The notes under the pieces are model-generated. The model saw only the letters and a program-made list of their open reading frames with translations, made no database searches and was not told where the DNA came from. A stretch of DNA of 27,559 nucleotides. Source: Phytoactinopolyspora endophytica. Its GTDB lineage: Bacteria; Actinomycetota; Actinomycetes; Jiangellales; Jiangellaceae. Positions within the stretch are counted from its first letter, which is position 1; each line of letters opens with the position of its first letter. Position numbers and translations under genes: made by a program. The stretch is taken from assembly GCF_004138495.1 (NCBI RefSeq), contig NZ_ML142849.1, positions 49,197-76,755 on the forward strand. The letters run 5' to 3'. This document shows, in pieces, positions 2,498 through 27,120 of this stretch.

Positions 2498-3511
2498 ATG
2501 CGGGCCAGAAGTGCGAACAGAACCGCCCGAGGCTTGGTGGGGACGCTGGTCCTGCTCCCCGTTCTGGCCGCCTGCGGCTCCGACGATGCCGACCTGACGG
2601 TCTACTCGGGGCGCGGCGAGTCGCTCGTGGGCCCGATCATCGAGCAGTTCGAAGAGGACAGCGAGTTGACCGTCGACGTCCGCTACGGCAACACAGCGGA
2701 GATGGCGGCTCAGATCCTCGACGAGGGCTCCAACACCCCGGCGGACGTCTTCCTCGCGCAGGACGCGGGCGCGCTCGGCGAGGTCTCAGCGGCCGGCATC
2801 TTCGCACCCCTCCCCGCGGAGCTTCTCGACATGGTCGACGCCGCCTACAGCTCGGCCGACGGCGACTGGGTGGGTCTCTCCGGCCGCTCGCGCACCGTCG
2901 TCTACAACACCGACCGGCTCGGCGAGGACGACCTCCCGGAGACGATCGCCGAGTTCACCGACCCCGGATGGGAGGGTCGGATCGGCTGGGCGCCGTCCAA
3001 CGCCAGCTTCCAGGCGTTCGTCACCGCGATGCGCGTCCTCGAAGGCGAGGACACCACCAGGGCATGGCTCGAGGACATGCGGGACAACGGCACCCAGGTC
3101 TATGACAACAACATCGCCATCCTCGACGCCGTCGCGAACGGCGAGGTCGACGCGGGCCTGGTCAACCATTACTACCTGTACCCCCGATTGGAGGAGGAAC
3201 CGGACCTTCCCGCTGCCAACAAGTTCTACGCCGATGGCGACATCGGCGCGCTGGTGAACGTCGCCGGAGCGGGCATCCTCGCCGAGTCCGAGAACGCCGA
3301 CGCGGCCACCGAGTTCGTCGAGTTCCTGCTCAGCGACACCGGCCAGACATACTTCGCCGAGGAGACCTCGGAGTTCCCGCTTGTCGAAGGGGTCGCGCAA
3401 CCCGACGGCATGCCCTCGTTGGAGTCCCTCACACCGCCGTCGCTCGACCTCGCCCAGCTGGAGGATCTCAGCGGGACGCTGGATCTCCTGCAACAGACCG
3501 GGGTTCTGTAA
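2498..3511 (+). CDS. Fe(III) ABC transporter substrate-binding lipoprotein (FbpA-like)
   Basis: A 337-residue extracytoplasmic solute-binding protein of the ferric-iron type (SBP family 1/6). It begins with a basic n-region and a hydrophobic stretch ending in the lipobox L23-A-A-C26, so it should be a membrane-anchored lipoprotein. The fold start LTVYSGRGESLVGPIIEQF and the segment SGRSRTVVYNTDRL are typical of FbpA/FutA proteins. The tyrosine pair Y225-Y226 in VNHYYLYPRL matches the iron-coordinating tyrosines of that family. A GGAGGG lies 6 nt upstream of the ATG. The gene is first in an operon behind two iron boxes, so expression under iron starvation is expected. Ferric iron, free or with a synergistic anion, is the likely ligand; a ferric chelate is possible. 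Confidence 0.9.
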   Translation: MRARSANRTARGLVGTLVLLPVLAACGSDDADLTVYSGRGESLVGPIIEQFEEDSELTVDVRYGNTAEMAAQILDEGSNTPADVFLAQDAGALGEVSAAGIFAPLPAELLDMVDAAYSSADGDWVGLSGRSRTVVYNTDRLGEDDLPETIAEFTDPGWEGRIGWAPSNASFQAFVTAMRVLEGEDTTRAWLEDMRDNGTQVYDNNIAILDAVANGEVDAGLVNHYYLYPRLEEEPDLPAANKFYADGDIGALVNVAGAGILAESENADAATEFVEFLLSDTGQTYFAEETSEFPLVEGVAQPDGMPSLESLTPPSLDLAQLEDLSGTLDLLQQTGVL

Positions 3512-3512
3512 C

Positions 3513-5321
3513 GTGCGAGCCGGCGGTTCGCCGTCCAGACGCCCGTTGCCCGGGCGTCTCACACCAAGACGTCTCACACCAAGCCGCCTCCTGGCCGGGG
3601 CAGCCATGGCGGTTGCCGCGCTCGCGGTGCTGCCCGCCGTCTACCTCGTCGTCCGCGCGGCCGACGGCGGAGGTGCGGCCGCGTGGGACGTCCTCAGACA
3701 TGCGCGCACACTCGAGGTGCTGCTGAACACCGCGGGTCTGACGGCTGCGGTCACCTGCGGCGCGGTCGCGCTCGGCGCTCCCCTGGCCTGGCTCACCATC
3801 CGAACCGATATCCCGCTCCGCGGCCTGGTGACCGTGCTGCTCGCACTACCGCTGGCGTTGCCGTCGTACATCGCCGCCTACGCCTACGTGTCCTTCCTCT
3901 CCCCGCGCGGCGTCCTACAGGGATGGCTCGAGCCGCTCGGCGTGGAACGGCTGCCGTCGATCTACGGCTTCTGGGGCGCCTGGGCCGTGCTGACCGTCAT
4001 CTCCTACCCGTACGTCTTCTTGACTGTCCGGGCGGCGCTGCGCCGGATCGATCCCAGCGCCGAGGAGGCGAGCCGCACGCTCGGTCAGTCCGCGATCGGC
4101 ACCTTCCGGCGGGTGCTCATCCCGGCGCTGCGCCCGGCTCTGGCCTCCGGTGGACTGCTCGTGGCGCTGTATACGCTCAGCGACTTCGGTGCGGTGTCGA
4201 TGCTCCGGTTCGACGCCTTCACCCGGGTCATCTATGTCCGATACGGGTTGATCGACCGTTCCGCGGCCGCGGTACTTGCCCTGCTCCTGGTCGCGCTCGC
4301 GCTGGTGGTGCTGATCACCGAGATGAGGACCCGGCAGACGGCCACCGGACACCTGCACGCAGGCTCACGACGGGCTCGCCCGATATCGCTGGGCCGGTGG
4401 CGCTGGCCTGCGCTCACCGCCGCGTTCGGGGTCTTCGTCGCCGGTGCGGTACTGCCCGTCGGGGTCATGGTGCTGTGGCTGGTGCGCGGGATCCGAGGGG
4501 GTGACGCGTTCGGGCCTCTCGGCGAGCTGGTGGCGAACAGCATGCAGGCGTCCGCGCTGGGTGCGCTGGCGGCGATCGTCGCGGCGTGGCCGGTGGCGAT
4601 CCTGACCGCGCGCCACCAGAGCAACGCGACCCGGTTCTTGGAGCCGGTCACGTGGATCGGCTACGCACTCCCCGGCGTGGTGGTCGCCCTGGGACTCGTC
4701 TCGTTCGGCGCGCGGCACGTCCCGGATCTCTACCAGACCATGGCCATGCTGGTGGCCGCATACGTCGTGATGTTCCTACCACTTGCCGCCGGGCCGATCA
4801 AGACCTCCGTCCAGCAGGTCAACCCCGCCTGGGAGGAAGCCTCACGCACACTTGGGCACGGAGCGCGGAGCACCTTCCGCCGGGTGGTCGTGCCGCTCTC
4901 CCGGCCCGGCGTGATGACCGCCGCGGCGCTGGTCTTCCTGACCGTCATGAAAGAGCTGCCCGCCACCCTCATGCTGGCGCCGACCGGATTCTCCACCCTG
5001 GCCACGCAGGTCTGGAGCGCCACGTCCGACAACTTCTACGGCCGCGCCGCCGCTCCGGCACTGACGCTGGTGATCCTGGCGAGCATCCCCACCGCTGTCT
5101 TGGCGTTGCGGGACGAGGCCCGGCCTCGTCGACGTCCCCGCGCCTCCGGCGACCGGTCAGGCTCGCAGGGCCCGGCAGACGGTCCCGGCCGGACAGGCAG
5201 GCCCCCGGCGCCCACCGGCGAACGTCCGAACGTGCCGCCGGTACCGGCCGGCATCTCGGCCAGCGGCCCGGCGGCTTCCCCGACGACGGCCCGGGCCGCC
5301 ACCGCGGGAGGCCGGAGATGA
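3513..5321 (+). CDS. Fe(III) ABC transporter permease, two fused permease domains (FbpB-like)
   Basis: A 602-residue inner-membrane permease starting at the GTG 3513, one base after the fbpA stop. It contains two complete ABC permease domains in tandem, as usual for FbpB/CysTW-like iron permeases. Each domain carries an EAA loop that docks the ATPase: EEASRTLGQSAIGTFRRV at 184 and EEASRTLGHGARSTFRRV at 441. About 12 membrane segments are visible. Two oddities are seen. The N-terminus encodes RLTPR-RLTPS from a 14-nt tandem duplication. The C-terminus has a 69-residue tail (534-602) rich in Pro, Gly, Ser and Arg with no membrane segment, which most FbpB proteins lack. Its stop overlaps the next start (ATGA), indicating translational coupling. 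Confidence 0.92.
   Translation: MRAGGSPSRRPLPGRLTPRRLTPSRLLAGAAMAVAALAVLPAVYLVVRAADGGGAAAWDVLRHARTLEVLLNTAGLTAAVTCGAVALGAPLAWLTIRTDIPLRGLVTVLLALPLALPSYIAAYAYVSFLSPRGVLQGWLEPLGVERLPSIYGFWGAWAVLTVISYPYVFLTVRAALRRIDPSAEEASRTLGQSAIGTFRRVLIPALRPALASGGLLVALYTLSDFGAVSMLRFDAFTRVIYVRYGLIDRSAAAVLALLLVALALVVLITEMRTRQTATGHLHAGSRRARPISLGRWRWPALTAAFGVFVAGAVLPVGVMVLWLVRGIRGGDAFGPLGELVANSMQASALGALAAIVAAWPVAILTARHQSNATRFLEPVTWIGYALPGVVVALGLVSFGARHVPDLYQTMAMLVAAYVVMFLPLAAGPIKTSVQQVNPAWEEASRTLGHGARSTFRRVVVPLSRPGVMTAAALVFLTVMKELPATLMLAPTGFSTLATQVWSATSDNFYGRAAAPALTLVILASIPTAVLALRDEARPRRRPRASGDRSGSQGPADGPGRTGRPPAPTGERPNVPPVPAGISASGPAASPTTARAATAGGRR
3555..3584 (+). repeat. Tandem duplication inside the permease N-terminus
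   Basis: Two adjacent 15-nt units, CGTCTCACACCAAGA and CGTCTCACACCAAGC, are identical at 14 positions. They encode RLTPR and RLTPS ahead of the first membrane segment. The copy is in frame and probably recent, since no silent drift is seen. Confidence 0.75.
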
Positions 5322-8020
5322 CCATATCGATGCCGCCCCTGAACGGCTCCACGACGGCGCCGCGCGTTCCGTTCGTCCAGGACCTCGCCGTCCACGGCGA
5401 CCGGCTCGCCGTCGTCACTGCCGATGGCGAGCTCTCCTACACTCAGCTGGCCGAGCGCGTCCAGGCGTGCGCTGAACGGCTCGGCACCGCCAGGCGGCTC
5501 GTGCTGATCGCGGGCGTCAACCGTCTCGATTCGCTCGTCACCTACCTCGCGGCGCTGTCTGCCGGGCATGTGGCGCTGCTGGCGACGCCGGCGCACGCTG
5601 CCTCCGTCGCCGCCCGGTATGACCCCGACGTCGTCGCCGGCGAGACCGGCAGCGAGTCCGGCGGTGAGTCCGGCAGCGAGGCCGGTCGCATCTGGAGGCT
5701 CGACGAGCGCCGCCGGACGTCCATGCACGACATGCACCCAGACCTTGCCCTGCTGATGAGCACGTCCGGCTCCACCGGCTCGCCCAAGCTGGTCCGGCTG
5801 TCGCACGAGAACGTGCGCTCCAATGCCGAGTCCATCGCCACCTACCTCGGCATCCGCGGCACAGACCGGGCGGCGACGGCGTTGCCCATGCACTACTGCT
5901 ACGGACTGTCGGTGATCAACAGCCACCTCGCCCGCGGCGCCGGCATCATCCTCACCGATCTCTCCGTCGTCGACGGCTGCTTCTGGGAACTGTTCCGCCA
6001 GAACCGAGGCACGACGTTCCCCGGCGTACCGCATACCTTCGATCTGCTCGACCGGGTCGGCTTCGCGGACATGGACCTGCCCCATCTGCGCTACCTCACC
6101 CAGGCCGGTGGCCGGCTTTCCGCGGACCGAGTGCGCTACTACGCCGAGCTCGGCCGTGAGCGTGGATGGGACCTGTTCGTCATGTACGGGCAGACCGAGG
6201 CCACCGCGCGCATGGCCTATCTCCCGCCCGACTTGGCCGCCGCACATCCAGACACCATCGGCGTTCCCATCCCGGGCGGCTCGTTCACCCTCCGCCCACT
6301 CCCCGACGGCGATGGGCCGGAGCCGGCCGAGCTCGTCTACGAAGGCCCCAACGTCATGCTCGGCTATGCCCAGACGCCGGCCGATCTGAGCCTGCCTCGC
6401 ACCGTCACCTCACTGCGTACCGGTGACCTAGCCCGCCGGACGGACGCCGGCCTCTATCAGATCCTCGGGCGACGCGGCAGGTTCGTGAAACTCGCCGGTC
6501 TCCGCGTGGACCTGCAGCACGTCGAGACGTTGCTGGCCGACCGGGGCGTCGCTGCCTGCTGTGCCGGGCGGGACGGTGAGCTGGCTATCGCGGTCGAAGG
6601 TGACCACGACCCATCACAGCTGGCCAGGCATGTGGCGGACGTGTGCACGCTTCCACCTCGGTCGGTCCGGGTATGCCTGGTCGAGCGCATCCCACGACTG
6701 GCCAGCGGCAAGCCAGACTACGAGGCCGTCCTCGCCCTGCCGGGCTCCACGACCGCCGTTCCGGCCGTCCCCGCCACTGATCCAGGCGATCCGGCACGCC
6801 CCGCCACCACGGTTTCCACCGAGCCCGCCGACGCTGCCGCCCTCCGCGACCTGTACGCCAGGGTGCTGCACCGGCCGGATGCCACCGAGGGCTGCACGTT
6901 CGTCAGCTTGGGTGGCGACTCGCTGTCCTACGTGGAGATGTCGATTCGGCTCGAGGAAGCGTTGGGGCATCTCCCCTCGGGTTGGCACACGACGCCGATC
7001 CGTGACCTCGCACCCCGGCCGCGGCGACGCCTGTTCGCAGGGCGCTCGGTCGACACCAGCGTGTTGCTGCGGGCGGCGGCCATCGTCGCCGTCGTCGGCA
7101 CCCATGCGGGCCTGTTCACCGTCCTCGGCGGCGCGCACGCGCTGCTCGCCGTCGCCGGGTTCAACTTTGCCCGGTTCCGGTTGGGAAGCCGCGCGGGTAG
7201 GGGCGCCGGTGAGGCGAGCTTCGCGCGGTTGCCAAGCTCCGCCGACCGCCGGCGACGTCTCCACCAGCAGCTGGCCAGCATCGCACGTATCGCCGTGCCC
7301 AGCATGCTCTGGATCGCCCTTGCCACCGTGCTGACCGGCCAGTACGGCGTGGTCAACGTCTTCCTGCTGAACGGCTTCCTCGGATCCGACACCTGGACCA
7401 GCGATTGGCACTTCTGGTTCGTCGAGATTCTGGTCTACATCTTGGTGGGCCTGGCGATCCTGATGGCCATCCCACCGGTCGACCGGCTCGAGCGGCGGTT
7501 CCCGTTCGGCTTCGCCGTGGTGCTCGTGGCTTTCGGCATGCTGACGCGCTTCGAACTGGTCGAGCTCTCAGTTCCGTATATGCTGCCGGCCTTCTGGCTC
7601 TTCGCGCTGGGCTGGGCAGCGGCGCGAGCCGCCACCGTCTCACAGCGCCTGCTCCTCACCGCCGTGACCGTGGCCAGTGTTCCCGGATTCTTCGACAACT
7701 TCCCTCGTGAAGCTGTCATGATCGGCGCGATCGTGCTACTTCTGTGGACAACCCACATCCCCTGTCCGGCGATGCTCAGCCGTATCGCCGGAGTGCTGGC
7801 CAGCGCCTCTCTGTACATCTACCTGGTGCACTGGCAGGTGTACCCGCACCTGGTCGCCGCCCACCCTGGCCTCGCCGTGTTCGCCTCGCTCATCGCGGGG
7901 ATCGTGCTCTGGCGCCTGACCACCCACGCCATGCGTTTCGCGGCCGGCGTGCAGGCGTGGATCCCATACCCGTCTCGACCATCTCGGGGTCCTGACGGCG
8001 GCGGTAAGATGGCGCCGTGA
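5318..8020 (+). CDS. Adenylating domain - phosphopantetheine carrier - acyltransferase-3 fusion protein
   Basis: A 900-residue three-part protein. Residues 1 to about 475 form an AMP-forming ligase of the ANL superfamily: P-loop TSGSTGSPK (149-157), YGQTEATAR (290), GD (369-370), GRFVKLAGLRVD, and catalytic Lys465 in ASGKPDYEA. YGQTE is closer to acyl/aryl ligases than to peptide-synthetase domains. Residues about 505-570 form a carrier domain with attachment Ser535 in LGGDSLSYVEM. From about 585 there is a membrane acyltransferase-3 domain (OafA-like): LRAAAIVAVVGTHAG with His596, and LYIYLVHWQVYP (832-843), with roughly ten membrane segments. The plan implies activation of an acyl or aminoacyl group, loading on the carrier, and transfer at the membrane. 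The substrate and acceptor are unknown. It starts in an ATGA overlap with the permease gene and lies under the iron-boxed promoter. Confidence 0.85.
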   Translation: MTISMPPLNGSTTAPRVPFVQDLAVHGDRLAVVTADGELSYTQLAERVQACAERLGTARRLVLIAGVNRLDSLVTYLAALSAGHVALLATPAHAASVAARYDPDVVAGETGSESGGESGSEAGRIWRLDERRRTSMHDMHPDLALLMSTSGSTGSPKLVRLSHENVRSNAESIATYLGIRGTDRAATALPMHYCYGLSVINSHLARGAGIILTDLSVVDGCFWELFRQNRGTTFPGVPHTFDLLDRVGFADMDLPHLRYLTQAGGRLSADRVRYYAELGRERGWDLFVMYGQTEATARMAYLPPDLAAAHPDTIGVPIPGGSFTLRPLPDGDGPEPAELVYEGPNVMLGYAQTPADLSLPRTVTSLRTGDLARRTDAGLYQILGRRGRFVKLAGLRVDLQHVETLLADRGVAACCAGRDGELAIAVEGDHDPSQLARHVADVCTLPPRSVRVCLVERIPRLASGKPDYEAVLALPGSTTAVPAVPATDPGDPARPATTVSTEPADAAALRDLYARVLHRPDATEGCTFVSLGGDSLSYVEMSIRLEEALGHLPSGWHTTPIRDLAPRPRRRLFAGRSVDTSVLLRAAAIVAVVGTHAGLFTVLGGAHALLAVAGFNFARFRLGSRAGRGAGEASFARLPSSADRRRRLHQQLASIARIAVPSMLWIALATVLTGQYGVVNVFLLNGFLGSDTWTSDWHFWFVEILVYILVGLAILMAIPPVDRLERRFPFGFAVVLVAFGMLTRFELVELSVPYMLPAFWLFALGWAAARAATVSQRLLLTAVTVASVPGFFDNFPREAVMIGAIVLLLWTTHIPCPAMLSRIAGVLASASLYIYLVHWQVYPHLVAAHPGLAVFASLIAGIVLWRLTTHAMRFAAGVQAWIPYPSRPSRGPDGGGKMAP
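5648..5683 (+). repeat. Three 12-nt in-frame repeats in the adenylating domain
   Basis: Consecutive units GGCAGCGAGTCC, GGCGGTGAGTCC and GGCAGCGAGGCC encode GSES-GGES-GSEA. A weaker fourth unit may precede them. They form a flexible acidic loop ahead of the P-loop motif, at a place where length changes should be tolerated. Confidence 0.65.
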
Positions 8021-8466
8021 CCGAAGAAGCCAACACCAGCGGTGACCAGCCGCGCGAGACCGGGCAGCCGTCCAGTGAGGACATCCGCAAGTACCTCGAA
8101 CAGCTCCGTCCGGTACCCGCCGACCAGGTGCTTGCCGAGACACTGTCCAGCACCCTGACGGCCGCCCAGGCGAAGCTGGGCCGGTACGACGCCCGGCTGC
8201 TGATCGACACAGCAGGTTTGATCTTCACCCATGCCCGCGGTTACCTGAACGACGAGGCCGCCAAGCAATTCGAGCAGGTACTCAACCAGCTGCGCATGGC
8301 CCAGGTACAGGCCGAACAGCGATCGGCGGGTCAGCAGGAAGAGAACGACCTTCCGCAGCCACCGGCACCGCCGGCCGGCTCAGGCGTCCCGCAGGCTCCG
8401 GCTGCGGCCCCTCCACGTCAGCAGGCTTCCCCGGCGTCCAAGCTCTGGGTCCCCGGCCGTCCCTGA
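8017..8466 (+). CDS. Conserved-looking hypothetical protein, last gene of the iron operon
   Basis: A 149-residue soluble protein that I do not recognise. Residues about 20-100 look fully helical, with the core IRKYLEQLRPVPADQVLAE and LLIDTAGLIFTHARGYLND. From about 105 on it is disordered and rich in Pro, Ala and Gln, ending SKLWVPGRP. It has no signal peptide, membrane segment or cysteine. The GTG start at 8017 overlaps the stop of the fusion gene (GTGA), so it should be translationally coupled to it and share the iron-regulated transcript. That coupling suggests a partner role for the fusion protein or the transporter, but this is inference only. It ends 35 nt before the convergent ATPase gene. 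Confidence 0.75.
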   Translation: MTEEANTSGDQPRETGQPSSEDIRKYLEQLRPVPADQVLAETLSSTLTAAQAKLGRYDARLLIDTAGLIFTHARGYLNDEAAKQFEQVLNQLRMAQVQAEQRSAGQQEENDLPQPPAPPAGSGVPQAPAAAPPRQQASPASKLWVPGRP

Positions 8467-8501: not shown

Positions 8502-9578
8502 CTACATGGTGTGGCGTCTGTAAGCGACTGGTTCCGGCCCCTGGTAGCTGACCGTCACGCGCGTCCCCCGATTCGCCACCGGCGCGCCCGGGCTGCGGAC
8601 ACGCAACAGCTCACCGGTCCGCGTACGCACCAAGGTCACGGTGTCGTGGCCATAGAACTCGACCAGTTCGACGTGCGCTTCACCCCGGGTATCCGGCGTG
8701 AGCAGGAGCGACTCCGGCCGGACGAGCACGTCGACAGCTTCCGGTCGAGGCTCGGACCTTGCCTCGAGCGCGTCTGCGGGCATGACACAAGACACCGGGA
8801 ACCGCCCTAAGACCGTCGCCACGAACGTCCCCGACAGGCTGCCCTCAACCAGGTTCGCGTCGCCGACGAACTCGGCCACCCAGCGATCGGCCGGGCATGC
8901 GTACACGGCCGTCGGTGGTCCGTGCTGCACGATCCGCCCGTCCCGGATCACCGCCACGTCATCGCCCAGAACGAACGCTTCTTCCTGGTCGTGGGTCACG
9001 AAGATCGTGGTGATGCCGAGCTCGGCGAGCAGCTGGTGCATTTCGGTGCGGACTCGCGTGCGCAGCGCTGCGTCGAGGTTGGAGAACGGTTCGTCGAGGA
9101 GCAGCACTGCTGGCTGCGGCGCGATCGCCCTGGCCAGCGCGATGCGCTGCTGCTGTCCACCGGAGAGGGTCTCAGGTGATCGACCGGCCAGGTCAGCGAG
9201 CCCGACCATCGCCAGTGCGTCGGCCACCCGGCTCTCGGCTTCATCCCTGGGCAGCTTCCGCAGGCCATAGGCGACGTTTGCGGCGACGGTCAGATGCGGG
9301 AACAACGCCCAGTCCTGGAACACCATGCCGACCCGGCGACGCTCCGGCGCGACCCGCTCGGTCTCGCTGAAGAGCATCCGGCCCCCGGCGGCGACCGTTC
9401 CGCTGTCGGGTTCCTCGAGTCCAGCGATGATCCGCAGCAGCGTTGTCTTGCCGCAGCCGCTCGGCCCAAGCAACGCCAGCGTGCCCCCTGGCTCCACCGA
9501 GAGCGAGACGCCATGCAGCACGTGGACGTCACCGAAAGACTTGGTGACGTCTGCCACCTGGACGTCCGCGGTGACCAC
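8502..9578 (-). CDS. Iron(III)-type ABC transporter ATP-binding protein (FbpC-like, with TOBE domain)
   Basis: A 358-residue cytosolic ATPase of the FbpC/PotA/CysA class. Visible marks are Walker A GPSGCGKT (38-45), the Q-loop FQDWALFPHLTV (Q88), the signature TLSGGQQQR (137-145), Walker B LLLDEP (159-164) and H-loop His196 in VTHDQEEAF. Residues from about 240 form the C-terminal TOBE-type regulatory region. It is the natural energy source for the permease at 3513-5321, which has no ATPase in its own operon. It lies on the opposite strand, tail to tail with that operon, starting at GTG 9578 only 14 nt after yebC. No iron box precedes it. It may therefore be co-transcribed with pdxT-yebC rather than controlled by iron. 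Another transporter as partner cannot be excluded. Confidence 0.9.
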   Translation of the reverse strand: MVTADVQVADVTKSFGDVHVLHGVSLSVEPGGTLALLGPSGCGKTTLLRIIAGLEEPDSGTVAAGGRMLFSETERVAPERRRVGMVFQDWALFPHLTVAANVAYGLRKLPRDEAESRVADALAMVGLADLAGRSPETLSGGQQQRIALARAIAPQPAVLLLDEPFSNLDAALRTRVRTEMHQLLAELGITTIFVTHDQEEAFVLGDDVAVIRDGRIVQHGPPTAVYACPADRWVAEFVGDANLVEGSLSGTFVATVLGRFPVSCVMPADALEARSEPRPEAVDVLVRPESLLLTPDTRGEAHVELVEFYGHDTVTLVRTRTGELLRVRSPGAPVANRGTRVTVSYQGPEPVAYRRHTM

Positions 9579-21306: not shown

Positions 21307-22320
21307 TCAATCCACGTGCACGATCTCCACGCTCTCGGCGAAATGGCATGCCGATGGGTGACCCTGTCCCCGATCGGTCAGCGCCGGGTCCTCGTCAACG
21401 CAGATCTGCTGCGCCTTCCAGCAGCGCGTCCGGAAACGGCAGCCGGACGGCGGGTTTGCCGGCGACGGCACGTCGCCGGTCAGCACGATCCGCTCCTTGG
21501 CGCCGCGCAGCGCGGGCTCGTGCACGGGCACAGCCGACAGCAGCGCCTGCGTGTAGGGATGCGCCGGCCGGTCATACACGTCGGCGTGGCTGCCGGACTC
21601 CACGATGCGACCGAGATACATGACGGCCACACGATCGCTGAGGTGGCGCACGACCGAGAGGTCGTGCGCGATGAACAGGTAGGACAGTCCAAGCTCGTCC
21701 TGTAGATCCTCCAGCAGGTTCATCACCTGCGCCTGGACCGAGACGTCGAGGGCCGAGACGGGCTCGTCACACACCAGCACACTCGGGCGCAGCGCCAGCG
21801 CGCGCGCCACACCGATGCGCTGGCGCTGCCCGCCGGAGAACTGGTGCGGGTAGCGGTTCACATAGTCCGGGTTCAGGCCGACCAGATCGAGCAGCTCGCG
21901 CACCCGGCGGGACCGCTCCTTCTTCGGGACCACGTCCGGGTGGATCTCCCACGCCTCGGCGACGATGTTGCCGACCGTCATCCGCGGGTTGAGCGACGCA
22001 TACGGATCCTGGAAGACGATCTGCACCTGGCGGCGGTAACGGCGCAGCTCCCGCCGGCCCATGCCGGCGACGTCCTTGCCCTCGAAGATGATCTGCCCGG
22101 ACGTCGGTTTAGTCAGGCCCATCATCAGCTTGGACACCGTGGACTTTCCGCATCCGGACTCCCCCACCAGGCCCATCGTCTCGCCGGGATAGAGCTCCAG
22201 GCTCACACCGTCCACGGCCTGGACCTGGCCGACGGTCCGTCTGAAGACGATTCCGCTGGTCAATGGGAAGTGCTTGACCAGGTCTTTGATCACTAGGATG
22301 GGCTCGCGGGAATCACTCAC
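21307..22320 (-). CDS. dppF: Peptide ABC transporter ATP-binding protein (DppF/OppF type)
   Basis: A 337-residue ATPase of a dipeptide/oligopeptide importer. Walker A is GESGCGKST (53-61), the signature is [12 protein letters not shown], and Walker B is [12 protein letters not shown], followed by the H-loop IAHDLSVV. The C-terminal oligo/dipeptide extension contains [12 protein letters not shown] and four cysteines (GCRF, TRCW, QICV, ACHF). The start is GTG 22320, which has a strong GAGGAG 7 nt upstream and overlaps the dppD stop by 8 nt (GTGAGTGA). An in-frame extension upstream lies inside dppD and is not real. Exact substrate cannot be told; dipeptide versus oligopeptide is uncertain. Confidence 0.92.
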
Positions 22321-23359
22321 CGTAAAGCTCCTCGCTGTAGTGACAGCCGCTCTTGCGGCCGGGCCGAACCTCACGCAGGTCCGGGACCTCAACGGCACAG
22401 TCCCGGCCAGGCGCGGCTGCCGAGCCGACCCTCGCGTGTGGGCAACGAGGGTGGAAGGAGCAGCCTGCCGGTATCGCCGCCAGGTTCGGCGGCTGCCCCG
22501 TGATCGGGTTCAGGCGCGTGCCCTTCGATTCGGCCTGTGGGACCGAGCTCATTAGGCCCGCCGTATAGGGATGCGTGGGCGACGTGAAGACCTCGTCGAT
22601 CGTTCCGGACTCGACGATCTTGCCCGCATACATCACGGCGACGCGGTCGGCGACCTCGTTGACCACGCCGAGGTCATGCGTGATGAGGATGAGCCCCATG
22701 CCGGTGTCCGCCTGCAAGTCGCTGAGGAGCTCCATGATCTGGGCCTGGACCGTGACGTCCAGCGCCGTGGTGGGCTCGTCGGCGATCAGGATCTCCGGAT
22801 CCAGCGCCAGCGCCATGGCGATCATGACGCGCTGCCGCATCCCGCCGGAGAACTGGTGCGGGTAGTCGTTCACCCGCTCCCGCGCGGCCGGGATACCGAC
22901 GCGCTCCATGAGCTCGATCGCCTTCGCCTTGGCCTCCCGACGGGATGCGCCCTGATGAGCCCGGTGCATCTCGCCGATCTGGTGCCCGACGCTGAACACA
23001 GGGTTCAGCGACGACAGGGCGTCCTGGAACACCATGGCGATACCGGGTCCCCGCAGAATCCGCTGCTTGTGCGAGGACATCTTCAGGATGTCCTCGCCGT
23101 GGAAGCGGATCGACCCACTGGTGATGAAACCCGGCGGAGTGTCCAGGATGCCCATGACCGCCTGGACGCTGACGCTCTTCCCGGAGCCGGATTCTCCGAG
23201 GATGGCCAGGGTCTCGCCCTTGTTGACGGAATAGGTGATGCCGTTGACGGCACTCACGGTGCCGTACGTCGTCCGGAACTCGACGTGCAAGTCGTCGACC
23301 TCCAGAACGGGCACGCCGACGGAACCGGCGAACTGGGGCGTGGTCAATGTTTCAGACAT
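22313..23359 (-). CDS. dppD: Peptide ABC transporter ATP-binding protein (DppD/OppD type)
   Basis: A 348-residue ATPase, partner of DppF at the cytoplasmic face of the DppBC permease. Walker A is GESGSGKS (55-62), the signature is [12 protein letters not shown], and Walker B is [16 protein letters not shown], then ITHDLGVV. The C-terminal [12 protein letters not shown] and a cluster of cysteines ([19 protein letters not shown]) form the oligo-HPY region. Cysteines spaced this way bind an iron-sulphur cluster in some DppD proteins; that is family knowledge, not shown here. ATG 23359 shares its A with the dppC stop codon (TGATG), so translation is coupled. Confidence 0.93.
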
Positions 23360-24330
23360 CAGCGCAACTTCGGGTCGAGGGCATCACGCAGGGCGTCTCC
23401 CATCAGGATGAAAGACAGAACAGTCAGGGACAGGAACAGGCTTGGGAAGAAGACCAGGAACGAGGAGTCACGGAACCGGTTGAGGCCCGAGTTGATCTGT
23501 AGTCCCCACGAGACCTCGGGCAGCTGCAGCCCGATCCCCAAGAATGACAACGTCGCTTCCGCGGCGATGATCAAGCCGACGGTGATCGTGGCGTAGACAA
23601 GGACCGGCGCCACAGCATTGGGCAGGATGTGCCGGGTGAGTATCCGCCATGTCGACGCGCCCAGGGCTCGCGCGGCTTGCACGTAGTCAGCGTCTTTCAC
23701 TGAGACGACTGTCGAGCGGACCAGTCGCATCGCCGTCATCCACCCGAAGACCATGAGCGCGAGCGACACCTCCGGAACTCCGCGGTTACTCAGCGTGGAC
23801 AACAAGAGGAACGCGCCCAGAATCAAAGGCACGCCATAGAAGACGTCCGTCACCCGGGCCAGCACCGCGTCGAGCCAACCGCCGTAATAGCCCGCCAACG
23901 CGCCGACGACCACACCGATGGTCAGGATGCCGAGCACCGTGAAGAACCCCACGGCCATCGAGACTCGCGCGCCGTGGACCACGTTGGCGAAGTAGTCCCG
24001 GCCTTGTATGTCGTATCCGAACCACGCCTCACCGCTGGGCCCCTCGGCGGACCGGGAAAGATCGGCGACGTTGGGATCCGCGTTCGTGAACAGCTGCGGC
24101 ACGACGGCCATGACGGCGAACACAAGGAACAAGGCCGCGCCGGAGAGGAACAGCGGGCTGCGCCGCAGCTGCCGCCATGCGTCGGACCAAAGGCTGGCTT
24201 GGCGGAGCTCGCCTCCCGCTTGGGCCACCGTCGTCTCGGTCGCCTTCTGGTCTTGCGGCGAGCCCGACTCAATGACGGTCTGCGTCCCGCCCAGATCGTC
24301 TTCTACGTCCCTGGGCTGCTGGTCAGTCAT
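23359..24330 (-). CDS. dppC: Peptide ABC transporter permease (DppC/OppC type)
   Basis: A 323-residue inner-membrane permease with an N-terminal extension of about 55 polar residues before the first helix (RSPLFLSGAALFLVFAVMAV), typical of DppC/OppC. Six membrane segments are visible. The ATPase-docking EAA loop reads AARALGASTWRILTRHILP. The start is ATG 24330, which overlaps the dppB stop by 8 nt. It forms the channel together with DppB. Confidence 0.93.
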   Translation of the reverse strand: MTDQQPRDVEDDLGGTQTVIESGSPQDQKATETTVAQAGGELRQASLWSDAWRQLRRSPLFLSGAALFLVFAVMAVVPQLFTNADPNVADLSRSAEGPSGEAWFGYDIQGRDYFANVVHGARVSMAVGFFTVLGILTIGVVVGALAGYYGGWLDAVLARVTDVFYGVPLILGAFLLLSTLSNRGVPEVSLALMVFGWMTAMRLVRSTVVSVKDADYVQAARALGASTWRILTRHILPNAVAPVLVYATITVGLIIAAEATLSFLGIGLQLPEVSWGLQINSGLNRFRDSSFLVFFPSLFLSLTVLSFILMGDALRDALDPKLR

Positions 24331-25246
24331 AGCGGATCCTTGGATCTATCACGGCGTAAAGGATATCGACCACCAAGTTGAACAGAATGTAGAAGAACAC
24401 GAAGATCGTCACGATCCCGACGACCACGAAACCCTCTTGCCGCAGGACCGAGTCGAACACGGCTCGGCCCAGCCCTGGGAGATTGAACACCGTCTCCGTC
24501 ACGATCGCGCCGGCCATCAGGTTGGCAAGGTCCGCACCGATGAAGGTGACCACCGGAATCATACTGTTGCGCATGGTGTGCTTGCCCACGACGACGGAGG
24601 GCTTGAGGCCCTTCGCCCGGGCTGTGCGCACGTAGTCCTGCCGCAGGTTCTCCGCGAGACTCGTACGGGTCAGACGTGCGACATACGCGAGCGAGAGCGA
24701 TGCGAGCACAAGCCCGGGCAGAATATAGCTGCGGAACCCGTCGCTGAGCCCTGCGATCGGGAACCATCCCAGCCGCAGCCCGAACGCGTACTGGGCGACG
24801 AAGCCGAGCACGAACACGGGAATCGACACGACGACCGTCGTCGACACCAGCACCAGGTTGTCCATGTACGAACCACGACGGACACCGGCGAGCACACCGG
24901 CGGTCAGGCCGATGATGATCTCGAAGACGATCGCTGTCAGCGCCAGGCGCACCGTCGTCGGGAGCCGCTGAGTGATCGTGTCGATAACCGGCCGGCCGGC
25001 GAAGTCAGTACCCAGATCACCTTGAAGGAGCCCGAGCATGTACTTGCCGTACTGGATCAGCAACGGGTCGTCGAGGTTGTACTCGTCCCGGATGGCGGCG
25101 AGTGCCGCCGGTGTCAGCGGGCGGTCTCCGGCCAGCGCCCGGACCGGGTCACCGGGTAGGGCGTAGACCATCCAGAAGATCAGAAACGATGCACCGATAA
25201 GTACCGGGATGGTCATCAATGCCCGACGCGCGATGTAGCGGGCCAT
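24323..25246 (-). CDS. dppB: Peptide ABC transporter permease (DppB/OppB type)
   Basis: A 307-residue permease. It begins MARYIARRALMTIPVLIGAS, the usual DppB first helix, followed by the periplasmic segment ALPGDPVRAL. Six membrane segments and the EAA loop TARAKGLKPSVVVGKHTMRN are visible. A strong AAGGAGG precedes the ATG at 25246. It lies 112 nt behind dppA, and this gap contains the hairpin at 25296-25339. Confidence 0.94.
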   Translation of the reverse strand: MARYIARRALMTIPVLIGASFLIFWMVYALPGDPVRALAGDRPLTPAALAAIRDEYNLDDPLLIQYGKYMLGLLQGDLGTDFAGRPVIDTITQRLPTTVRLALTAIVFEIIIGLTAGVLAGVRRGSYMDNLVLVSTTVVVSIPVFVLGFVAQYAFGLRLGWFPIAGLSDGFRSYILPGLVLASLSLAYVARLTRTSLAENLRQDYVRTARAKGLKPSVVVGKHTMRNSMIPVVTFIGADLANLMAGAIVTETVFNLPGLGRAVFDSVLRQEGFVVVGIVTIFVFFYILFNLVVDILYAVIDPRIRYD

Positions 25247-25295
25247 GCCCCTCCTTACGACTGAGCGCTATGGCTGAGTGCTCTGTGATCTCACA

Positions 25296-25339
25296 GGTAG
25301 CGTTGGGGTGCACCCCAATAGGCACACCCCAACGCTACC
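25296..25339 (-). promoter_or_regulatory. Hairpin with alternative pairings between dppA and dppB
   Basis: A perfect 15-bp inverted repeat (GGTAGCGTTGGGGTG and its complement, 25296-25310 and 25325-25339) with a 14-nt loop. The palindrome TTGGGGTGCACCCCAA (25303-25318) uses the same left arm, so two hairpins exclude each other. No U-run follows. It may stabilise the dppA message or lower read-through into dppBCDF, giving excess binding protein. Confidence 0.7.
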
Positions 25340-25358
25340 GGTCAGTGATCCTCTGAGG

Positions 25359-27068
25359 TCACTGGTTCACAGTCACGCCCGCCAGATCGATGCGGGAGAA
25401 GGGGTCGATCACGATGTTGTCGACGTTCTCGGTGTGTACGGCCTGGTTCACGCCGTAGAACAGCGGCGTGGCAGGCATGTCCTGGCACAGCACGTCTTCG
25501 GCCTGCTGGTACAGCGCCGTCGCCTCTTCGGGGTCACCGGCGACGTCACCCTGGTTGATCAGGTCGTCGAACTCCGAGCTGTCATAGAACACGTCGTTCG
25601 TACCGCTGGGCGGGGTAGCAGTCGACTTGAACAGCGGCCCGAGGAAGTTCTCGAGGCTCGGGTAGTCCAAGACCCAGCCATGCCGGAACGGACCGGTCAT
25701 CTGCTGCTGCTCGCGCAGGTCCAGCAACTCCGCGAAGTCGATGCTCTCCAGGCTGTAGTTGGCGATCCCCAGGTTGTCGCGCAGCTGGATCCCGATGGCC
25801 TCGACCCATTCGTCGTGCCCGGCACCGGAGTTGAACCACAGGTCGATCGGCTCGGACCGGTCGAATGCGCCGTCTGCTTCCGCCTCGTCGAGCAGATCGT
25901 TGGCTCGATCAGGATCGAACGTGGCGAACTCGCAGGCGTCCTCGCGGTAGCCGTCGACCACGGGCGAGGCGAATGATTGCGCAGGGGTGCGAGAACCCAG
26001 GAAGATCGACTCCGTCAGCGCTTCTCGGTCGATGCCGAGCGACAGGGCCTGCCGCACGCGCTCGTCCTGGAGGCTCTCGAGGTACATCGGGAACCCGAGC
26101 ATCGTGACGTCGCCGCGCGGGTATTCGACCCACCGGTCACCGAACTCGTCAGCGCCGCTGCCCAGCGCACTCTGCGGGAGCGTGTCGGAGAGGTCGAGGT
26201 TGCCCGCCTGGACGTCCGTGTAGGCGGTGTTCTCGTCGGCGTACACGCGGAACTCGATCTGGTCCGCGTTGCCGGGGTTGTCGCCGGCGTACTCCTCGTA
26301 CCTCTCGATCTCCATGCCCTGCCCCGGCTGGTACGGCCCGGTCGCCGCGTACGGGCCATTGCCGATGGGCTGCTCGCCGAACCCGTCCTCGTCTTCGAAG
26401 AACGCCTCCGGCAGCGGGAAGAACGCGGTGTAACCCGTGGTCAGTGGCCAGATGGCGAAAGGCTCCGAGAGCGTGACCTCGAAGGTCAGGTCGTCGATGA
26501 CATTCAGGCCGGACATCTCCTCGGACTCCGGCTCCTCGTTGACGATGACCTCACCCTCCTCGGTGAGCTCGACGTCACCCTGAAGGTCCTCGAAACCCTC
26601 GATGTTGGCGAAGAAGTAGGAGTTGTTCGCGGCGTTAGGGCCGTATGCCGTCCAGTTCCATGCGTCCACGTACGATTGCGCGGTCACCGGAGTGCCGTCG
26701 TGGAAGGTCCAGCCGTCCTTCAGGGTGACGGTGTAAGTCTGAGCGTCACCCGAGTCCTCGATCGACTCAGCGACACCTGTGAACTCCATCTCGTACGTCT
26801 CATTGTTGTACTTGATCAGCCCGGTCCAGAGGGTGTCGACGATCTGGCCACCCTCTGTCTCGTTCGTCTTGCCCGGAATCAGCGGGTTCTGTGGTTCGCT
26901 GATATAGGTGCTGAACGCGCCGCCAGTCGGCTCGCCGGTGTCACCGTCGCCGTTGTCGCCGCTGCCGCTATCGCTGCTGTCCTCATCGTCGTCGCCACCG
27001 CAAGCGGCAAGCGCGAGCGCCAAGGCGGTGATAGCCGCCAGGCTCGCTTTTCGCGCAGAGTTACGCAT
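25359..27068 (-). CDS. dppA: Peptide ABC transporter substrate-binding lipoprotein (DppA/OppA type)
   Basis: A 569-residue extracytoplasmic binding protein of SBP family 5. The signal peptide ends in the lipobox L20-A-A-C23, followed by a very acidic linker (GGDDDEDSSDSGSGDNGDGD) before the globular domain. Family marks include LKDGWTFHDGTPVTAQSYV and VRQALSLGIDREAL. The start is ATG 27068; GGAGGG lies 12 nt upstream. A TTG at 27080 is in frame but would sit right on that site. It leads a dppABCDF operon and captures peptides for import. Peptide length preference is not deducible. The acidic linker is like that of salt-tolerant lineages. Confidence 0.92.
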   Translation of the reverse strand: MRNSARKASLAAITALALALAACGGDDDEDSSDSGSGDNGDGDTGEPTGGAFSTYISEPQNPLIPGKTNETEGGQIVDTLWTGLIKYNNETYEMEFTGVAESIEDSGDAQTYTVTLKDGWTFHDGTPVTAQSYVDAWNWTAYGPNAANNSYFFANIEGFEDLQGDVELTEEGEVIVNEEPESEEMSGLNVIDDLTFEVTLSEPFAIWPLTTGYTAFFPLPEAFFEDEDGFGEQPIGNGPYAATGPYQPGQGMEIERYEEYAGDNPGNADQIEFRVYADENTAYTDVQAGNLDLSDTLPQSALGSGADEFGDRWVEYPRGDVTMLGFPMYLESLQDERVRQALSLGIDREALTESIFLGSRTPAQSFASPVVDGYREDACEFATFDPDRANDLLDEAEADGAFDRSEPIDLWFNSGAGHDEWVEAIGIQLRDNLGIANYSLESIDFAELLDLREQQQMTGPFRHGWVLDYPSLENFLGPLFKSTATPPSGTNDVFYDSSEFDDLINQGDVAGDPEEATALYQQAEDVLCQDMPATPLFYGVNQAVHTENVDNIVIDPFSRIDLAGVTVNQ

Positions 27069-27120
27069 TGGGTAAACCAACCCTCCATGATTGTGTCATT
27101 TTCCGCCACCCTGGCCCACA

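Follow-up and report, generated by a model that had tools for sequence, protein, structure and literature searches.

The gene at positions 5318-8020 (+) of the 27,559-nucleotide stretch of Phytoactinopolyspora endophytica DNA analysed here, referred to below as the window, encodes in one intact frame a 900-aa protein that joins an ANL ligase, a carrier domain and an AT3/TmAT membrane domain, and it lies among genes for FbpABC-type ferric transport. The fusion belongs to a large actinobacterial family whose dependence on the transporter is one-way in a sample of the window's class: FbpA is often present without the fusion, and the fusion was never found without FbpA. In many soil actinobacteria this known type of ferric importer is accompanied by such a membrane enzyme, which by its make-up would activate an organic acid and move it over the cell membrane; the pairing suggests that iron uptake in these bacteria includes an additional chemical step. 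Our preferred reading, held tentatively and with a little less than even confidence, is that the fusion may be an iron-starvation enzyme serving FbpABC ferric uptake, by way of an extracytoplasmic, likely envelope-bound acylated ligand that would feed FbpA.

The genes for FbpA and then for the double permease lie directly 5′ of the fusion gene and form one run with it. The FbpA-type ferric-ion-binding lipoprotein (2498-3511, +; stop codon TAA at 3509-3511) matches the solved ferric-binding protein 7w3w at E = 3.6e-86 and carries the Tyr-Tyr iron motif as NHYYLY at residue 223, and the Tyr-Tyr pair is present in 103/103 loci in which the motif region was covered. The fused, FbpB-like double permease (3513-5321, +; probable GTG start at 3513) shows two BPD_transp_1 stretches in its translation from 3519. 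Its stop codon shares the bases ATGA with the start of the fusion, which bears out the coupling to an Fe(III) permease gene described in the original prediction. At the other end, a small DUF1844-like gene (8017-8466, +; Pfam score below the cut-off) overlaps the fusion stop in GTGA; in at least one congener (L002) a relative of it (57%) comes after the fusion, and the wider set of fusion loci compared gave no match to it, so that it stands outside the conserved set there. An FbpC-like ABC transporter ATPase with a TOBE domain (8502-9578, -; PF00005 and PF08402) lies convergent to the fusion. An FbpA with the Tyr-Tyr motif, a double permease and a TOBE-type ATPase are the features shared with the FbpABC, HitABC and SfuABC systems, and these FbpABC-type neighbours are, by predicted transport function, a ferric importer. 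Upstream of the iron operon lie genes for a GNAT acetyltransferase (841-1377, +) and a protein of the FGE-sulfatase (formylglycine-generating) family (1429-2130, -), neither with any link to the operon that we could see. Further along the window, an apparent complete oligopeptide/dipeptide-type ABC transporter operon (21307-27080, -), read from translations only, comprises a binding protein, two permeases and two ATPases.

Two degenerate DtxR/IdeR-like iron boxes are located 146-189 bases 5′ of the fbpA start. Box 1, a degenerate palindrome (TTTGGCAAGGCTTACCACA, 2309-2327, +), and box 2 (TATGGTAAGGCTCACCTTA, 2334-2352, +) each score 16/19 on a relaxed consensus and 15/19 on the other strand. 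The strict 19-bp DtxR consensus, with up to 3 mismatches allowed, matched nowhere in the window; since the window boxes are degenerate, scoring was done against the relaxed form with random-window controls. On this scale no score in the rest of the window exceeds 14, barring the reverse complements of the two boxes themselves. Relatives were scored by the best 19-bp match within the 350 bases upstream of a start and the first 60 bases inside it. A box of at least 15/19 precedes the fusion in 25/29 linked loci in which no same-strand transporter gene stands before the fusion, and the fusion has such a box of its own in 12/16 unlinked class loci. When the fusion stands downstream of a transporter gene on its own strand (19 loci), the box is found at fbpA in 17/19 and at the fusion itself in 4/19. 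A box at one or the other gene is thus present in 54/64 class loci, the remaining 10/64 fetched class loci having none that reaches 15 at either; of 3000 control windows drawn at random from these loci, 72 score 15 or more, and some of the 72 may overlap real sites. The iron boxes originally described over the operon are therefore supported both by their scores in the window and by boxes in relatives, and co-regulation of the fusion with FbpABC under DtxR/IdeR-like control is predicted from these motifs.

Carriers of the fusion among named genomes (80 of the 117 loci from this search were kept) include Streptomyces, Jiangella, Nocardioides, Microbacterium, Agromyces, Mycolicibacterium, Actinomadura and others, and there are relatives at greater distance in genomes of Phenylobacterium and of the Rhodobacteraceae type. 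Association with FbpA was assessed in a class sample of 393 genomes, evenly drawn from the window's class, with FbpA called at E ≤ 1e-30. The fusion was matched at E ≤ 1e-60 in 70 of these genomes, five of which (G171, G097, G144, G314 and G111) were dropped as ANL-only. FbpA was present in 65/65 full-length carriers versus 52/328 other class genomes (Fisher 3e-42, phi 0.68, values that ignore phylogeny and genome size), and for this reason the test was repeated inside two genera. In the Streptomyces-like genus g24 (the tree places its family, f19, among named Streptomyces), FbpA was found in 19/19 carriers versus 5/131 non-carriers (phi 0.87), one of 20 matches having been dropped as a ligase-only protein (G468). 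In the Nocardioides-like genus g43, from a family (f26) that is placed in part among named Nocardioidaceae, the figures were 73/74 carriers versus 1/44 non-carriers (phi 0.96), with all 74 matches kept, including two that match in the second half only (G565 and G607). The single g43 carrier with no FbpA match, G624, is a draft of 360 contigs. FbpA with no fusion match was noted in five g24 genomes (G431, G491, G525, G529 and G540) and one g43 genome (G595). The tie to ferric uptake put forward in the original prediction is strengthened by the class-wide co-occurrence, by the within-genus tests and by the fusion's own iron boxes. Across the class, 52 of the 117 genomes with FbpA are without the fusion, and the presence of FbpA in that share of the 328 non-carriers indicates that FbpABC can work without it.

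Physical linkage is common as well. The fusion has genes for all three transporter parts, FbpA, permease and ATPase, at a distance of about 8 kb or less in 48/64 fetched class loci (49/65 with the window), and FbpA is found at 8 kb or less from it in 19/19 g24 carriers and 65/74 g43 carriers; among the other nine g43 carriers, FbpA is encoded elsewhere in eight, in some of them on another contig, so that adjacency is possible there, and was not found in one. Such frequent linkage is what would be seen if the fusion were a passenger, carried along with the fbp cluster through transfer or an old linkage, with no part in iron uptake. However, FbpA is also present in 16/16 unlinked class carriers, those with no complete transporter in the fetched flanks (one fetched locus, L146, ends shortly past the fusion, and a transporter there could be missed), so that more than linkage is needed to account for the co-occurrence. 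Gene order is variable too: the fusion follows the permease in the window and two congeners, is divergent from fbpA in the Streptomyces type, is convergent with the ATPase in the Jiangella and Microbacteriaceae type, follows the ATPase in, for example, Nocardioides and Mycolicibacterium loci, and in a further layout precedes fbpA. On a tree of 113 fusions, made up of the window and 112 of 132 loci with full-length frames (20 near-copies, and loci with short or over-long matches, were left out), the layout labels, including "none" and "other", change at least 29 times, although some of these changes may come from contig ends or tree error. Repeated rearrangement of the fusion around the same partner genes is clear. 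The co-occurrence in unlinked genomes, the changes of layout and the iron boxes owned by 12 of the 16 unlinked copies together disfavour the passenger idea, which we consider extremely improbable.

All three parts of the protein can be delimited. The ANL adenylation domain (residues about 15-475; 5360-6742, +), with its P-loop at 148-157 and K465, matches PF00501 at 1.2e-40; the carrier domain (residues about 505-555; 6830-6982, +), with attachment residue S535, exceeds the PF00550 cut-off; and the AT3/TmAT membrane domain (residues 575-882; 7040-7963, +) was recognised by fold and motif. In an alignment of 203 rows, the P-loop from T149 to K157 is conserved at 91-100%, and K465, S535, R585, H596, W700, F701, Y835 and H838 occur in 98-100% of aligned rows, K465 and S535 each in 201/201 rows aligned there. 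Loss of catalytic residues across homologues was thus not seen, and the description of an intact three-domain enzyme stands. On the same conservation across relatives the idea of a bad frame was rejected. Among 7996 candidates scored in the homologue search, the best 120 rows, the query among them, are 829-948 aa long and cover 90-100% of the query, so that the three parts stay together there, and PF01757 appears in the precomputed domain column for most relatives among the matches listed. In one locus (L071, Streptomyces sp. SCUT-3) the fusion frame stops early, at 551 aa, and is possibly a decaying copy; it has an iron box of 16/19 in front and no fbp match in the fetched flanks.

The solved protein that best matches the ligase (phmmer) is VinN, which is also among the fold matches, and the best NCBIfam profile is TIGR03098, the exosortase-A-associated ligase, whose score of 148.6 bits does not reach the curated cut-off of 592 bits. 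In pairwise alignments, C194 falls at the position of the Asp that anchors the amino group in VinN and LgrA, and across the 203 rows this Asp235 position is occupied by C in 170, S in 17, V in 16 and D in none. With no Asp at the amino-anchoring position, an alpha-amino acid appears unlikely as the ligase substrate, and so does a Dlt-like aminoacyl role. Four residues of the ligase pocket, R298, Y193, Y195 and Q262, are near-invariant, R298 (201/202 rows) being aligned with an Arg of VinN; from these it may be guessed that the substrate is a small polar acid.

A fold search with the whole model was filled by the ligase domain, so a separate model of the membrane domain was made and used for a search of its own. 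In this model it has the 10-helix TmAT fold and does not belong to the MBOAT proteins. Its score with the Pfam AT3 profile (PF01757) is 23.1 bits, below the cut-off of 31, and plain Foldseek with the membrane-domain model alone gave no match at E ≤ 0.001, GWT1 coming first at 0.27. The R-X10-H motif of helix 1 (R585/H596) is kept in 201/203 rows, the two exceptions being a general ligase match (L018) and a partial match on a short contig (L100). On motif and fold, and with the Pfam score as given, the proposal that an AT3 domain takes the place of an MBOAT holds. The aminoacyl group that had been considered as cargo is left without support, since the amino-anchoring Asp is missing from all 203 rows and the fold is TmAT, not MBOAT.

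A second motif bears on the acyl donor. An RXXR-type motif before a proline, at the cytoplasmic face of helix 3, occurs in 0/201 fusion rows with either loose or strict spacing. Ordinary AT3 rows of the same class have it in 28/31 cases with loose spacing as extracted, or 27/29 after removal of two rows that look mis-framed (L186 and L199), and in 20/31 with strict spacing; one further row of this set, L114, is partly masked. In the OafB model described in PMC9833829, arginines of R-X10-H and RXXR are placed at the 3′-phosphate of CoA. A carrier-bound arm has no 3′-phosphate, so that loss of RXXR would be expected if the fused carrier feeds the domain directly; this is suggestive, though not proof, of an AT3 domain that takes its acyl group from the fused carrier rather than from CoA. 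The loss is also compatible with another mode of CoA binding, and close to the lost motif R657 is an arginine in 82% of rows. If the AT3 domain used ordinary acyl-CoA, the ligase-carrier half would have a separate job and the fusion would amount to mere co-expression. The retained R-X10-H motif and the nearby R657 could be accommodated in this way, but it sits badly with the absence of RXXR from every one of the 201 rows while the carrier serine is invariant, and with the cohesion of the three parts over 90-100% of the query in the best 120 of 7996 candidates, and we regard it as very unlikely.

In the mechanism that we favour, iron starvation would lift DtxR repression of the fusion and of FbpABC. 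The ANL domain, judging from family knowledge and conserved residues, would adenylate a carboxylic acid for whose binding no alpha-amino group is used, and the acid would then be loaded onto the fused carrier, on the phosphopantetheine of S535. As the fold and the motif loss suggest, the TmAT/AT3 domain would receive the acyl group directly from the arm of the carrier, without CoA as donor, and pass it through the pore with R585 and H596 to an acceptor on the outer side of the membrane. The product of this acylation would most likely be a ligand bound to the envelope or placed elsewhere beyond the cytoplasm; it would collect Fe(III) near the cell, and the Fe(III) of this ligand would be handed to the lipoprotein FbpA and from there to the permease and ATPase. 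It is tempting to speculate on a siderophore-free route in which the acid is esterified onto an envelope component, giving a surface-bound ferric ligand, a "tethered siderophore", that funnels iron to FbpA; we consider this version possible without being probable.

The product might instead be a soluble ferric chelator, if the AT3 domain acylates a small acceptor, or releases the acyl group, outside the cell, yielding a minimal siderophore or xenosiderophore-like compound from which FbpA strips the iron. The evidence of co-occurrence, linkage and boxes would be the same, an envelope polymer would not be needed, and the 12 of 16 unlinked copies that form iron-boxed units away from the transporter are what a secreted product allows. 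Nevertheless, no second biosynthetic gene recurs in 100 loci with flanks of up to 8 kb: the neighbour clusters found in at least 17 of the 100 loci consist of the fusion, the transporter genes and frames opposite these, and all others occur in 7 or fewer. Moreover, siderophore complexes mostly use other classes of binding protein. A soluble product therefore seems doubtful to us.

The acyl group could also serve no chelator at all, and remodel the envelope or acylate the transporter itself (the FbpA lipoprotein or a permease loop), thereby enabling FbpABC to work. According to a 2022 review of the family (PMC9558356), O-acylation of surface glycans is the normal activity of AT3 proteins, and some relatives of the fusion lie in settings that would suit such a role. 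Three class genomes (L166, L168 and L169) have stand-alone ligase relatives of about 39-42% identity that, read by eye, adjoin small carrier genes; in L166 and L169 glycosyltransferase-like genes are close by as well. Two alphaproteobacterial fusions (L083 and L099) are next to nucleotide-sugar genes. Remodelling makes the near-restriction of the fusion to FbpA-bearing genomes hard to explain, however, and the five ANL-only relatives of the class sample have no iron box, their best scores being 10-13; we think it unlikely on balance.

The alphaproteobacterial homologues, at about 35-42% identity to the window fusion, show the enzyme outside the iron context. No fbpA or permease match lies alongside them, and in three loci (L086, L095 and L096) an ATPase match stands alone, which any ABC transporter could give. 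The regions upstream of the alphaproteobacterial fusions in named loci score 10-13, the level of background, and contain no DtxR-type box. An FbpA-like protein, at a weaker match, is encoded in 8/10 of the carrier genomes searched, and 2/10 have none at E 1e-20. The enzyme is thus not tied to FbpABC everywhere, and the concern that homologues might mostly lie away from iron genes, raised with the original prediction, applies to the alphaproteobacterial ones and not to the actinobacterial ones, which mostly adjoin fbp genes. The same kind of fusion was seen in Rhodobacteraceae-type, Hyphomonadaceae and Phenylobacterium genomes (L080, L083, L084, L092, L093, L097 and L099) with no common neighbour, and a Pfam search of 20 genes near alphaproteobacterial or unlinked actinobacterial homologues showed no recurring partner and no substrate gene. 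Given the nucleotide-sugar and glycosyltransferase-like neighbours and the lack of iron boxes in these settings, the ancestral job of the enzyme may have been surface-glycan acylation, and actinobacteria may later have put it to use in taking up iron.

FbpABC importers are regarded as sufficient by themselves for ferric iron that is bare or only loosely bound, and we know of no described Fbp system with an acyl-activating or acyl-transferring partner. In the Dlt system the ligase DltA, the carrier DltC and the MBOAT protein DltB follow a ligase-carrier-membrane acyltransferase logic that moves a group outward. The likeness to Dlt claimed for the window protein is sound as regards this general logic and gains no support for the aminoacyl group, as the ligase is without the amino-anchoring Asp (0/203); the fusion differs further in being one chain and in having a TmAT fold for the MBOAT. 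Stand-alone carrier-loading ligases such as VinN, PltF and HitB, and the TIGR03098 ligases, are separate proteins acting with separate carriers, and VinN has an Asp where the fusion ligases have C, S or V. Epsilon-poly-L-lysine synthetase has, like the fusion, the order adenylation-carrier-membrane domain in one chain, but its substrate is an amino acid, and condensation-like domains stand at its end where the fusion has AT3. Compared with the AT3/TmAT surface O-acyltransferases (OafB, OatA, IcaC and HGSNAT), the fusion adds an N-terminal ligase-carrier portion and is without RXXR. DltB is given in PMC12423673 as distinct from TmAT. The 2022 AT3 review names fusions with C-terminal SGNH and racemase domains, and the words "AMP-binding", "phosphopantetheine" and "iron" are absent from its main text (PMC9558356). 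Full-text searches of open-access literature yielded no paper on this fusion; in agreement with the original prediction, neither a described iron-uptake system with this component nor a characterised family was found there. Each domain is known, and what appears to be new is their combination and the tight partnership with FbpABC, in other words an Fbp-type system with a new enzymatic partner.

That the fusion tracks FbpA almost perfectly in two genera, whether or not the genes are neighbours, suggests an extracytoplasmic chemical step in uptake, and this bears on the delivery of poorly soluble Fe(III) to FbpA in Gram-positive cells. If the proposed mechanism is true, a TmAT pore can receive its acyl groups from a tethered carrier, and no earlier AT3/TmAT enzyme supplied by a fused carrier in place of CoA is known to us. 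Cells could in this manner export acyl groups for which no CoA pool exists.
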